DNA from: Daphnia pulex | Lineage: Eukaryota > Arthropoda > Branchiopoda > Diplostraca > Daphniidae | Direction of reading: 5' to 3' | Length of the DNA stretch: 64,000 nt | Assembly: GCF_021134715.1 (NCBI RefSeq) | Contig: NC_060028.1 | Coordinates: forward strand, 580,501 to 644,500 | In this document: positions 2,840-21,900 of the stretch, one piece after another | Position numbering within the stretch: the first letter of the stretch is position 1 | Layout: each line of letters begins with the position of its first letter | Program-made: the position numbers and the translations under genes | Notes under the pieces: model-generated | What the model was told of the DNA's origin: nothing | What the model saw: the letters and a program-made list of their open reading frames with translations, nothing else | Database searches by the model: none

Positions 2840-4348
2840 CAATCAGTTGGCAGACATCTAAATACCCGACCAAACAAACAACTATATCCATTCCATATCC
2901 AATTCATTCCGCAGATATCAACACCATCCGGACAAACAAATTCCGCGTGATCTTGCGATAAATTCGGATGCTGAGCAGAGATGGAAATCATCCGCTCATC
3001 CAGCAAACAAATAAAAATTCTACACCAAAACCGCATCCGATCAAAACAAATAAAATCCGGTGAACTGTATAAAGGTCCTGTCGTGTTGTTGTTGTTGTTG
3101 TCTCAGGCCGCCAAAAAAGAACTTTCTCATCCAGCACAACTTCCGGTGCGGATGTTGTCACGTGCTCTATGTCTCTCTTTATTTTACCTTTAAGGTAAGA
3201 AACAATGAAAATGCATCTCCTACTTGGCACTCCCTTTTCTTTTCGGTCGGGAGATTTTTTGGCGGCGTCCATTTTGGTTTTTCCTTCACGATGTGAGAGA
3301 GACCCGCGTTCGTGATTCCAGCAGAGGAGAGGAGGGGGTATACCTGGTGATGATGACGGACGATGATGATGGCCATCACGATATGCAACGGACCCACATT
3401 TATTATTATATAGCCGACGCGCAGACCGACACCCACACACACGCCGAACGGTCCCGACACTTTTCCTTATCTTTAACCCAAATAAATGGCGCCCAACTTG
3501 ATGAGATTATTTCAATCAGAAAACAACCAAACGAATTAATTTCCCATAAAGTTTGAGCGCCAAAAAAATAACATTTTACCGTTACACTCACTTGATGATT
3601 AAAGATGGGCAACACGCAAAGAACATTAACCAAAGTTTTAAAAATGGCTGATATGATTATTATTATTTTCTGTCGGGTGTTTTATGTAGCGCATCGGTTG
3701 GTAGAAGAAGAAGAGAAAAACCATTTGACATTTTCGCGTGTGAGAGAATGAGGAAAAGGCATCACAGTCGGCTGATCATCCAGGCCAATCTCTGTTATTA
3801 TTCGTCTGCTATAGCTGATGCTTTACGTGTAAACGTTAAATAACAATTCCAAACATTTTCTATCTGAAATATCTTGTGTGTGAGTGGCTCCACCCTTGCA
3901 AACGGAAATCCTCCACATTTGTGTCGTCAGGCTCCGTCGAGTTCATTTTTTTAAAATCTCCTATCTTCTTATTTTCGTCTTAAAAGATGAAAATGTCTCC
4001 AGTGTGGAACAATTTTTCCGAGATCTTGAGCTCAGCAAGCTCCGCCCACCATTTTCTAACCGCTCCCCCTACCACCACCTTGTCAGCTGTGCCTGTGCGG
4101 GTACCAGCAGCTTTTCAGTGTCTGCCTGTCGGTTGCCCCAGAAGGACGTGTCTGTGCGTGTCCGTTTTTTTAAAAAAAACTTTGTTACTATTTTTTAATT
4201 CAGTGAACATTTACCAACAACCAAATGTTTAAATCATGAAACGTCCCACGGATTACACGAGAAAATTTTTGTGAATTTTTTATTCAACATTTTCCGAGAA
4301 ATAAAAAATTTTAACTTTTACAAAGAAAATTCGATTTTTCTGGAGAAA
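2840..4348. other. Spacer upstream of the CLCA gene
   Basis: This stretch holds low-complexity runs (T-rich, CACACA, GATGAT) and short open frames with biased composition. No gene is supported. It probably contains the promoter and 5' UTR of the CLCA gene, but I see no clear core promoter. Confidence 0.4.
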
Positions 4349-7300
4349 ATGGTGGTCGTGAAATTATTTGTGATTGTTTTAGTGTTGTTGTTCCGGTTGT
4401 CTGTCGTCGATTCGGATGCTTCTTCTTCGTCAGTGATTCAGCGATTAATTGTCCGGCTAGAAGATCCGTCATCTCATCCGTCATCCGACAATTGCACATT
4501 ATTCAAACAAATTGAGGTCAGATTTTTTAAAAATTTTGATGAGATATTCGCCGGAATTTCCGGTGTGTTTTGGTTCAAACAATAAGAGAAAAAGAAAAAA
4601 AAAATGTTTCGGGTTATTTTATTTTTTTTAAAAAGCCAAGCGCTTTATATGGGCGAGCGCGCTAATGAGGCGATTTGCATATTCATGTTCTCTCTAACAG
4701 CCATATCCCCCATCCCACATCTCTAAATACTTCTTTCTCTGGCCCATCCACGAGCGCACAAATCGTTTAACTCTGGAGAAAAGAAGAGATAAATTGTCTT
4801 TCCTTCTTACCAGTCCCGGTGCAAGTTATTCCTCCTCCCGACTTGGTTAAGTCTATTCCTTCCCGTCTTATCTAATATTCACTGAGACAATGGGCCTTGT
4901 GTTGAATCAGAAAAATGCTAATTTCTATTCGTTAAGATTCGACGATATTCTCATATCGTAGACGGGAAATGCGGGAATTTTGAAAAAAAAAAACTTATTT
5001 TTATTCCCTACCGGTTGGATGGGATGTGTGTAATCATCGGGGATGTTGTTCCATCACCAGTTGCAAGAGGAGGGGGAAATATATTTTGATATCGAAAGAT
5101 GATGGATGGATAGGAGAACGCTATGCTCGTATTTAGCTCGAGGGAATTGACTAGATGACGACGTTATAAAGGTTAAATCGATTTTTTCGTTTATTTTTAT
5201 CTCGCGGTCCCGCCGAAACATTTTTAAAAAATTTTTTGATTTGTCACGACACGCGGCAGAGGACACGCGCCATTTTGTTTTGTTTTTCCCGCACGCACAA
5301 TTCTCCTTCCATCATCTGAGATGAATATGAAAATGTTGAATTTCATATTTTTATTCCGGCTTAGATTTTTGTGTCTTTGGGGGCCATTTTTTAAATATTA
5401 TGCTAATGAGGAAATGGGCATCCAAACACGCGGATGAATCATCCGTCATATCCGGATGATATTCATCTCGGGAATCGAACCCTACCTCTTTTCTGTCGAA
5501 TTTTCCGGGGAGGGAGAAGAAGAAATAATCAAAATTTTCAAAAAATTAAATGGCGGTAAAATTTAAAAATAACCAAAATTCAAATAAATATTTTCACACA
5601 AAAGAAAGAAGCCCCAGAAAAGAAAAACAAAAGAACAATAAGAACTCGGTAATTTAAAAAAAGGTAAATGGGAGGAGACTAACGGAAGGAGGAAAGTCAA
5701 AGATATACAACATCTCTCTCTCTCACCGAGGTTGTTGTTGTTGCATTTAATCATCGGTAATTTCAGGGGGGGCATATACAGCAGCTGGGCCAACTTTAGC
5801 CATCCATGTATGTGTGTAAACAGCCAAAATCATAGAGCACAAACAGAACCAACGGTAAATATTTTTTCGGGATAAAAATTTTACAAACATTTCGGGATTT
5901 TTGTTTTGTTCCCATCCGGCAACTAAATATATAAAAGTTGGATAAGATTCTCATCACAACAATAAAGTGTGTGTGGGGGGGGGAAGTTCACCACCTTCAA
6001 TTTTCTTGACGCCGGGGGGTTTTGATAAAAAAGATTTTTGTGTCAGAAAACTATTGAATTAAATTTGTTGTACAACTTTTTTGATCACATATTATATTCA
6101 GCCGGAAGGGAATTTTCTATCCCCAAAAAAGAAGAAGAAGAATCTTTCTTATTAGACGTTTGTATATTCATTGGATATTTTCTTTCTTATACCTAAAAGT
6201 AAAAGAAGAAAAAGTCTGTTGTTGTTCAATTGCGGAATGTTGTTGAAGGGAGAGGAGAGAGAAAAATGGAAATAACTCGACGTCATAAACGGATGGATGG
6301 ATGGAAACATCCAGGCTCGAAAAAAATTTCCATTTTTCCTATTTTCTTCTTCTTTTTTAGACATTTTGATTTTTTAGTTTTTTATTCTGTACGGGGTGTA
6401 ACCACACACAAGTGACGATATCTTTTTATTTGATTTCAAATTCAATTAAATTTATTTTTTCTTCTTTTTTTTAAATATTTTTTTCTTGTGAATTTACGAC
6501 GCGAAGAGTTTCGCCCCCGCTGGAGACTCCTCCTCTTTTTATCTTTTTTCTTTCCACCCACGCCGGTCCATAGGATAAAATAAAAATATCTAAAAAATAT
6601 AAATCTTTTCAGCATGTCTTTTGTTCAACTTGTTGGCGAAGAAGCCGGGCGATATCCATCACCAAGGGAAATATTATTCAACGCTCAACAGAGGAGAGTT
6701 TTGTTATTGTGTGAGCTAGCCCCCCCCCTTTAGGGGTTCTTCTGCCATGACCTAAAGGGGATCACAAATAAATTCCCATCCAAAAAATAAGAAAAGAAAA
6801 AAAAAGTTATTGCAGACGAAAAGGAAAAAGAGAAAATCTCCGGCGCCTTTTCAGACGGACTATGCAAATCAGTTCCCCCCTCCCCATTTCCCGCGTGAAA
6901 TAAAAAAAAAAAAAGAGAAAATTCGGTAATATCGACCTTTCACTTTACAACCAAAATAAGAAAAAACGAAATAAAATAAAATAAAATTTGAACTAAAATT
7001 TTTTTCCAATAATTGATGTTATTAAAAAATATAAGGTGTCGTCACTTGTCGGGTCTAAAAAATGTGTACAGTTTCTTTTGTTTGCCTTTTGGCGTGTGTG
7101 TGTCTCTCACGGTCGGTTGACTGCTGTTATTGTCATCTTTTGAAAAAATCATTTTATCACGAAAGATAATTATCGTGCGTGTTTTGTTTTTTCTCCTGAA
7201 CTCTTTTTATTGCATTTCGCGACTACAGAGACAAGAAAAAATAATATTCAAATTTTTTACAATTTCCGGTTTGAAGTCGAAAAATTCCTCACGCCCGTGG

Positions 7301-20330: not shown

Positions 20331-20759
20331 AATAGACCTCTTGCACAAAGCGGATAGCAGGATTCTTGTAGTCCGACAATGCTGCAATCCGCCATATTGA
20401 GAAAACCACACCCTTTTTTAACATTGTCTCTTATGGAAGTATTTTTCAAAGTGTTTTTTCTCTTAACTGGATAACAACTTCGACCAAAGAAAAATATTAA
20501 AAAATACTACATCATTCAGGTAATCCGTAGCGTGTAAGTTTTCCACTATTGAAGTAGTGGAAGTCGTATTAATTAAATGTTTTGTACTGGGCATATGGGC
20601 ATTGTTTACATATGTAGGACCCAAAGATGTACAGTTTACTTATAATTTTTAACATTTTCAAACTGAAACACTTGGTAATTCATTTTTCCAAACTATTTAG
20701 ATTGTCATGAGTGACGAGGTATTGGTGGAAAATGCTGTAATCCAATTATTCGACCTCTC
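20331..20759 (+). repeat. Left terminal inverted repeat
   Basis: Reverse complement of 21472-21900 with only scattered single-base differences, such as ATGAGTGACG against ATGTGTGACG. The inner edge is where the two copies stop matching, just after GACCTCTC. Confidence 0.85.
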
Positions 20760-20876
20760 CAACTGCCAACCGAGGCAAAAGAACGCTATCTTTCGAAGTT
20801 GGTAATTTAAAACGTAATTTATACTTTGTGTAAAATTTTCCCCTATCTTATGTGATGTATTTTTATGTTTTACAGA

Positions 20877-21309
20877 CAAGCATCTTATGCCAGAATGATC
20901 AATCAAATTTCCCAATGTGAATTTGCTGCCACAAAATCCTTGAGGTACTGTGAAATGAACACTGCAGAGCGTTAACACCATGATGACCTTTACAACCACA
21001 TTGAAGAAGGAATTTTGTCAGCTCAAAAAGACATTGAAGCAATCAAGAAGGAGTTGCATGAAGCAAGACAGATTCGTAGGAATAAAATGGAATATGATGC
21101 TTTGGCTGCCATTATTCAAACACAGCCTGATCGAAAGAGCAACCAAGAGAAATTATCTCTATTGTGACAGGTACTGGAAGCCTCAGAATGTAAATGTCAG
21201 AAATTGGAAGCTAAATTAAAACAAAGATGCAAACAATTTCACTTACTCATTTCAACGGGCAACTATCCAAGGATTACAGCAACTCCTCAACGATGATGAA
21301 GCATCATAA
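20877..21309 (+). pseudogene. THOC7: THOC7-like pseudogene inside the TIR element
   Basis: The translation shows the THO-complex subunit 7 signature: a segment with ISQCEFAATKSL, then KELHEARQIRRNKMEYDALA, QTQPDR, and a C-terminal KQFHLLIST followed by a LQQLLNDDE-type end. THOC7 belongs to the THO/TREX mRNA-export complex. The copy has an in-frame TAA at 20973, an in-frame TGA at 21165 and a frame change between about 21250 and 21265, so it cannot make THOC7. An intron-like segment 20802-20875 (GTAATT to TTACAG) still precedes it, so capture was from DNA rather than spliced RNA. The N-terminal part is missing or unrecognisable. Confidence 0.85.
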
Positions 21310-21471
21310 TTGTTTATTTTGTATGCATCCATATTCTCTATTTTTGAATAACAATGCTAACAAATACAAATCATTTTAAACAAAAAAAAATCTATGTATG
21401 AATAAACTATCCAAACGATACGTATACGACAATGAAGAATGCTTTAAAAAACACAAAACACAGTTCTTCTT

Positions 21472-21900
21472 GAGGGGTCGAATAATTAGATTACAGCATT
21501 TTCCACCAATACCTCGTCACACATGACAATCTAAATAGTTTGGAAAAATGAATTACCAAGTGTTTCAGTTTGAAAATGTTAAAAATTATAAGTAAACTGT
21601 ACATCTTTGGGTCCTACATATGTAAACAATGCCCATATGCCCAGTACAAAACATTTAATTAATACGACTTCCACTACTTCAATAGTGGAAAACTTACACG
21701 CTACGGATTACCTGAATGATGTAGTATTTTTTAATATTTTTCTTTGGTCGAAGTTGTTATCCAGTTAAGAGAAAAAACACTTTGAAAAATACTTCCATAA
21801 GAGACAATGTTAAAAAAGGGTGTGGTTTTCTCAATATGGCGGATTGCAGCATTGTCGGACTACAAGAATCCTGCTATCCGCTTTGTGCAAGAGGTCTATT
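21472..21900 (-). repeat. Right terminal inverted repeat
   Basis: Mirror copy of 20331-20759. It contains no gene. The element ends at GAGGTCTATT (21900). Confidence 0.85.

Follow-up and report, generated by a model that had tools for sequence, protein, structure and literature searches.

To our knowledge, gene capture by transposons with terminal inverted repeats (TIRs) is known chiefly from plants. The Pack-TYPE transposons (Pack-MULE, Pack-CACTA, Pack-PIF, Pack-hAT and Pack-Mariner) are plant elements in the accessible part of PMC8903248, where the capture of host DNA is modelled as template switching in gap repair or as the joint mobilisation of neighbouring ends. For ISL2EU, the accessible part of PMC4482050 reports 5′-AT-3′ target-site duplications (TSDs) and TIRs that usually start with GG and have observed lengths of 6-259 bp, which set no absolute bar; the same text gives a TSD of TWA for PIF/Harbinger and of ANT for Pangu, and for Spy an AAATTT target without TSD (the absence of a TSD also appears in the accessible part of PMC11304231). 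Among the open literature covered, mainly titles and abstract openings, no animal ISL2EU family with captured host genes was found. The locus described here lies in a window (the whole stretch of DNA that was analysed) of 64,000 nucleotides from Daphnia pulex, where positions 20332-21899 form one complete non-autonomous DNA transposon with AT on both sides. It is very probably a cut-and-paste element with long TIRs and an AT TSD, likely moved by an ISL2EU-type transposase, which took up the 3′ part of a functional THOC7 gene and was amplified with it as a passenger.

The window element consists of two inverted arms and an interior of 712 bp, mostly THOC7 (Table 1). Its exact limits lie one base further in on each side than in the first-pass annotation (20331-21900). 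The first-pass annotation, made from the letters of the sequence, had described near-identical 429-bp inverted arms, and BLAST indeed aligns them in inverted orientation with 99.3% identity over 429 nt; the multiple alignment gives 99.1%, and a repeat search on the window 97% over 451 nt with the flanks counted in. At their inner ends, the arms do not consist of THOC7 sequence but lead into a short exon-like stretch from another gene, which reads MCDEVLVENAIIQLFDLSNYSDSLPTEAKERYLSKL in four other complete copies, with 97-100% identity. The THOC7 homology starts within an intron, at about 20810. The identity of the cargo, as first annotated, stands on a Pfam match to THOC7 (PF05615) of 75.1 bits against a cut-off of 28.7; the two in-frame stops, codons 33 and 97 when numbered on the parental exon, and the frame shift, due to a 7-bp insertion, were confirmed by codon analysis, and the intron-like stretch has a homologous intron before the same exon of the host gene (borders read by eye). 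The alignment of the cargo to the intact THOC7 locus and the searches for family members, empty sites and TSD length, all of which the annotation had proposed, were run with the outcomes given below.

Table 1. Features of the transposon in the window (positions count from the first letter of the window)
Feature	Position	Strand	Basis or remark
Left AT target-site duplication	20332..20333	.	AT also beyond the opposite end of the element
Left arm (TIR), outer terminus ATAGACCTCTTGCAC	20332..20759	+	Repeat search, BLAST, terminus pattern search
Exon-like stretch (ATG ... AAGTTG/GTAATT), inner arm and just past it	20707..20801	+	Weak protein match, context
Last THOC7 intron, 3′ part with acceptor	20810..20875	+	Alignment to L035
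Broken last THOC7 exon	20876..21308	+	PF05615, codon analysis
Stops in THOC7 exon	20973-20975, 21165-21167	+	Positions read by eye
7-bp insertion in THOC7 exon	near 21255-21261	+	Position read by eye
THOC7 3′ UTR and flank	21309..21470	+	Host-gene homology stops at TTCTTCT
Right arm (TIR), left arm inverted	21472..21899	-	Repeat search, BLAST, alignment
Right AT target-site duplication	21898..21899	.	As for the left AT

The host THOC7 gene (L035, around C7:12054343-12055115, minus strand) is apparently intact: its last exon is open across 141 codons, and matches PF05615 and the 7apk chain annotated as THO complex subunit 7 homolog (E 4.6e-30). The gene aligns to the cargo from its last intron across the exon into the 3′ flank, with 88.9% identity over 628 nt in BLAST and 65 of 630 columns differing in MAFFT. 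A THOC7 profile search of the genome gave 10 matches, and the interior of the window element, used as a genome query, also gave 10, corresponding to nine elements and one gene. Intron sequence alignable to the host gene is contained in the THOC7 pieces, as well as in the VPS36 pieces of a second group of copies, in whose SNU13 piece a stretch resembling an intron was recognised by eye; the captures were therefore taken from DNA and not from mRNA. It was noticed after the fact that the 3′ flank of the host THOC7 holds ATAGACCTCT, the first ten bases of the TIR with its AT (L035:3312-3321, minus; C7:12054311-12054320), 9 bp past the end of the cargo homology, which could possibly be a scar of the capture, or chance.

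The genome (133,188,837 bases in 13 contigs) was searched with the 25-nt terminus, allowing up to 2 mismatches, and with the reversed pattern as control. The terminus occurs at 40 places (19 forward and 21 reverse), versus 0 for the control, and the left arm as query yielded at least 46 matches, among the best 40 of 44 candidates. These 40 termini make up nine convergent pairs, that is, complete elements of 1.57-1.76 kb, and 22 single ends; a further convergent couple on C7, 13 kb apart (L051/L052), was left out of the count because the L052 end is itself rearranged, and an extra end with a 3-bp insertion (L028) lies outside the pattern count. The nine complete copies differ in their flanks (25 bp compared), their family has arms of 264-430 bp, and they carry two types of cargo. 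Subfamily A, with THOC7, comprises five of the nine (the window copy, L027, L029, L031 and L032) and four partial copies (L028, L030, L033 and L034), and the THOC7 stretch is the same in all nine of these members, running from the tail of the last intron through the last exon into the 3′ flank, except that L028 lacks the beginning of its intron part. The other four complete elements (L042, L044, L046 and L047), with the partial L037, form subfamily B, whose interior of about 1.1 kb (L042) has only short ORFs and joins a broken two-exon SNU13 piece (best PDB match hSnu13, E 1.7e-14; PF01248 match) to the final exon of VPS36 with its flank (PF04157 match). The VPS36 locus is L059, with 84% identity over query positions 566-1052. 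A SNU13 gene was not found in the genome by DNA, peptide or PF01248 in a heuristic search, the closest of six PF01248 loci to the SNU13-like peptide being L073 (31.7% over 41 aa), which probably reflects a limit of the search.

To look for empty sites, the 110 bp to the left and the 110 bp to the right of every complete copy were joined and searched against the genome. Such sites were seen for one of the nine elements, L031, whose repeat filled the best 40 of 226 candidates; none of those 40 was an empty site of the window copy. For L031, 44 of 45 listed matches span the junction of the joined flanks, most with 82-96% identity and four with 70-75%, so that this copy is inserted into a copy of an older repeat and its empty sites are paralogous. 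The five aligned empty sites all read TTTCA-AT-CAG, with AT once, and the filled site TTTCA-AT-AGACC...GGTCT-AT-CAG; thus, the target duplication is AT, of 2 bp, and these sites, together with the flank comparison of the nine copies, rule out TA or a longer duplication. The copies and the empty sites bear out the reading of the first-pass annotation, a TIR transposon that captured host DNA including an intron and later spread.

The first-pass annotation had also seen young arms around an old cargo, a contrast that does not hold between copies. Compared with the four other complete THOC7 copies, the left arms of the window element differ by 5.5-6.0%, its right arms by 5.7-6.0% and its interior by 5.4-5.9% (p = 0.82-1), and since these differences match, arms and cargo are equally old. 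What is young is the mutual likeness of the two window arms (0.9% different): they are 99.1% identical to each other versus 93.6-94.5% to the arms of the other four copies, as expected of gene conversion between arms, and pair at 100/99 in an arm tree of 30 rows, which does not include the short arms (L049-L058), L033 or the left arm of L034. Against all eight other arms they share a distinct state in 24 alignment columns, one indel accounting for about eight of these; at five single-base sites that tell left from right arms in the other four copies, they agree at four, two in the left state and two in the right, and both lack a 10-bp insertion typical of right arms. However, the arms of L029, L031 and L032 are 96.0-96.4% identical between left and right (about 4% different) and 99.5% or more between left arms, so that the homogenisation is episodic.

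Exchange is also seen in subfamily B, where L042/L044 and L046/L047 differ by 6.5-8.4% in the arms versus 1.3-1.7% in the interior (p = 2e-11 to 4e-8). The change affects the right arm and, on the left, no more than about the outer 300 bp; exchange has replaced the two ends around a retained cargo. Four left-arm changes common to L046 and L047 (positions 264-300) fall past the 264 bp of the right arm, and the donor was therefore another element and not only the partner arm. Of 25 sites that distinguish L042 from L046, the other arms mostly side with L042 at 15 and with L046 at 10, so that either pair may be the changed one. The annotation's alternative that the arms evolve under exchange is thus sustained by the arm alignment, the tree and the comparison of arms with interiors, and both ends swapped with the cargo left in place are good evidence for exchange of long TIRs between family members.

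On the other side of the balance, a simple cut-and-paste history does not explain the 22 of 40 termini that stand alone. The single ends examined (e.g. L036, L038, L039, L041, L043, L045, L048-L051, L057 and L058) have an intact outer end, and their arms break off at different inner points, 82-400 bp in those listed. A retrotransposon-like truncation was considered and rejected, a convincing duplication being absent at the 16 loci examined. With the joined flanks of 12 single ends, no match across a join was found among the best 40 of 235 candidates; one flank is clearly repeated elsewhere for five of the 12 (L039, L043, L048, L051 and L057) and weakly for L038, none of these repeats crossing the join, and the continuation of the repeat, fetched for L043, L048, L051 and L057, had no match within its own locus. 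Single ends may result from deletion, from one-ended transposition or from more cargo. The stretch C7:2250549-2321231 (L040, L054-L056 and an end at C7:2284112) holds a THOC7-type element that is truncated but retains a remnant of the 3′ flank of THOC7; its copies were multiplied by larger segmental duplications, since flanks are shared in the loci compared. A tandem repeat with units of about 172 bp (L030, about 3185-5001, and L052, 2875-3630) adjoins two broken members of the family. At one single-arm-end locus, L039:3172-4614 (minus) is a 481-aa open frame with an RVT_1 domain.

Regarding the enzyme that moves the family, no autonomous member with the family ends was found in the assembly by the terminus searches. 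A 15-nt end with one mismatch occurs at 41 places, one beyond the 25-nt search (control, 3), again with no transposase-coding member found, and Pfam, applied to 10 long ORFs from single-end loci out of many more, hit RVT_1, kinesin and ankyrin in three, left seven blank and gave no DDE transposase. The exon-like stretch of the arm reads open in four complete copies, which are 97-100% identical to the query. Beyond the family, a search up to E = 1 matched it to a single sequence, present three times on C8 (E 0.12, 48% over 33 aa). In the copy examined (L060), this sequence belongs to a resident ISL2EU-like element, in which it forms an N-terminal ORF upstream of the YqaJ one. That element holds a DDE_Tnp_4 ORF of 38.1 bits, above the cut-off, and, on the opposite strand, a YqaJ-like ORF of 20.2 bits, below the cut-off of 22, which is located downstream of the match. 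The reverse search with the L060 ORF recovered its own four copies and then only the present transposon family, with weak scores (E 0.29-0.35). The resident element or remnant (L060/L066, C8:2037000-2043900) has similar copies near C8:2086050, C8:2100618 and C8:1368543; its ends were not found, and it is possibly a relative of the mobilising element. The AT duplication and these reciprocal weak matches on an ISL2EU-like element suggest a transposase of the ISL2EU type, which we consider probable. Other candidates fit less well: the target features of Spy, PIF-Harbinger and Pangu do not agree with a 2-bp AT duplication. Tc1/mariner elements duplicate TA, and the L031 empty site is CAATCAG and not CAATATCAG. 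The family departs from reported ISL2EU elements in that its TIRs start with AGACC and not GG, its arms reach beyond the reported range, and no ISL2EU coding sequence (DDE/HTH/THAP transposase or YqaJ ORF) is present in the copies seen.

The history of the cargo can be read from its last THOC7 exon. Among the nine copies, 49 nonsynonymous and 15 synonymous changes are variable, for a neutral expectation of 3.2 to 1, and the cargo copies decay neutrally. The changes common to all nine with respect to the host THOC7 are 3 nonsynonymous and 15 synonymous (Fisher p = 6e-6 against the varying changes), or 1 and 12-13 without codons 31-36, where an indel lies; the counts become 6 and 16 when fixation is relaxed to eight of the nine copies, 6 and 16 without L030 (p = 2e-4) and 6 and 17 in the five complete copies only (p = 5.5e-4). 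Decay of the cargo therefore does not account for its 10% distance from the host gene, as the exon changes common to all copies are mostly silent, and the cargo was not long a pseudogene before amplification, as decay in the genome for half that distance would leave about 24 fixed nonsynonymous changes. Shared silent and private neutral changes thus set capture against amplification in the history of the cargo: either amplification would have come promptly after capture, or the donor would have been a functional THOC7 already diverged.

In the first case, to which we would give an even chance, the capture took place in the ancestry of this very genome and the element was amplified at once, so that the shared differences would have arisen on the host branch and would hence be silent. 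The 1 to 3 fixed nonsynonymous changes versus 12 to 15 synonymous ones agree with it, as do the non-coding changes, which on the host branch (19 of 225) are of similar order to those of the copy lineages (8-24 of 225); the counts for L028 and L033 are inflated by a poorly aligned intron part and 3′ part, respectively. The silent sites speak against it, with 16 of 84 changed on the host branch versus 1-7 of 84 in the copy lineages (p ≤ 0.012 for eight of the nine copies and 0.093 for L030), and so do silent and non-coding sites pooled (p < 0.05 for five of the nine), in per-copy tests that are not independent, the copies being related.

The silent-site excess on the host branch favours instead a donor that was a functional THOC7 of a diverged lineage or a lost paralogue, the element having reached this genome afterwards by hybridisation or horizontal transfer, which we regard as a tentative alternative. 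It is favoured by the pattern of purifying selection in the shared differences (Fisher p = 6e-6), followed by neutral decay, and by a silent divergence in excess of the copies' own age. In the same direction point the VPS36 exon, with 4 of 168 fixed changes (one nonsynonymous) versus 45 of 300 in the adjoining non-coding sequence (p = 6e-6, a figure inflated by some badly aligned non-coding columns), and the lack of an autonomous partner in the assembly searched. However, the VPS36 count of nonsynonymous and synonymous changes is by itself not significant (p = 0.051), the fixed changes are few and come from a comparison within one genome, and the non-coding sites of the THOC7 piece show no clear excess, which weakens any strong claim of a foreign donor. 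That an ISL2EU-type family would have captured functional THOC7 and VPS36 exons in a diverged lineage and brought them here is doubtful; if true, a transposon would have carried host gene pieces over a species border, with neutral decay afterwards.

A regulation of the parental THOC7 by the cargo transcript or by hairpin RNA of the arms would be in keeping with the splice acceptor kept in the cargo and with arms that could pair in read-through RNA, features of the sequence only, but it is very improbable: such a hairpin would consist of arm sequence, silencing of THOC7 does not follow from an anatomy that leaves the THOC7 part in its loop, and the exon varies among copies like neutral DNA. Most likely, the cargo does nothing. 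Finally, an ordinary inverted duplication around a THOC7 pseudogene, without a transposon, would account for arms 99% alike around a broken gene and can practically be discarded, as there are nine complete copies with the same ends and different flanks, a second cargo within the same arm type and, for L031, a precise AT insertion with respect to its paralogous empty sites, in place of the lone copy without empty site that the first-pass annotation had named as its counter-case.

The preferred reading is that of a non-autonomous TIR transposon carrying a passenger. At the DNA level, the THOC7 intron, last exon and 3′ flank would have been placed between the ends of the element, through template switching in gap repair or through two neighbouring ends mobilised jointly. 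An ISL2EU-type transposase would have moved the element in trans, the cargo being amplified with it as a passenger load. The arms would serve as transposase ends and, as long inverted copies, would occasionally be equalised by gene conversion, both within a copy and with other members of the family. The ends, the copies, the captured segment and its multiplication as a unit are direct observations, like the AT insertion (in one copy), the neutral decay of the cargo and the homogenisation and exchange of arms.

Galileo foldback elements have arms of variable length and a target duplication longer than 2 bp, and Helitrons are not known to have terminal inverted repeats or a target duplication. 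The present family has long inverted arms like the foldback element Tetris of Drosophila virilis, as presented in the accessible part of PMC4079207, but differs from Galileo in its 2-bp AT duplication, and it holds captured host genes. As in the Helitron gene capture of the accessible part of PMC4778049, host gene pieces were taken up in an animal, whereas both ends here are inverted repeats with target duplication. With ISL2EU, of the PHIS superfamily, as described in the accessible part of PMC4482050, the family shares the AT duplication and an exon that weakly resembles the ORF on the YqaJ side, and the resident element has DDE_Tnp_4 and YqaJ-like ORFs as in ISL2EU; it departs from that description in its AGACC terminus, in arms longer than 6-259 bp and in coding capacity, which was not seen in the copies. 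In its overall organisation, the element is Pack-TYPE-like: it is non-autonomous, its TIRs are intact and a target site is duplicated (L031), its interior derives from host genes with donor-like loci elsewhere in the genome (THOC7, L035, and VPS36, L059), the host gene pieces were amplified as a unit (five complete copies with THOC7 and four with SNU13 and VPS36, at different sites), and one element can combine more than one locus (SNU13 and VPS36). Unlike the plant Pack-TYPE elements, the family has arms of several hundred bp (264-430) and few copies, its host is an animal, and its transposase, probably ISL2EU, lies outside the classes named in the accessible part of PMC8903248. Three captured genes in one arm type, with the THOC7 gene and the VPS36 locus still in the same genome, are what this family adds to those described systems.
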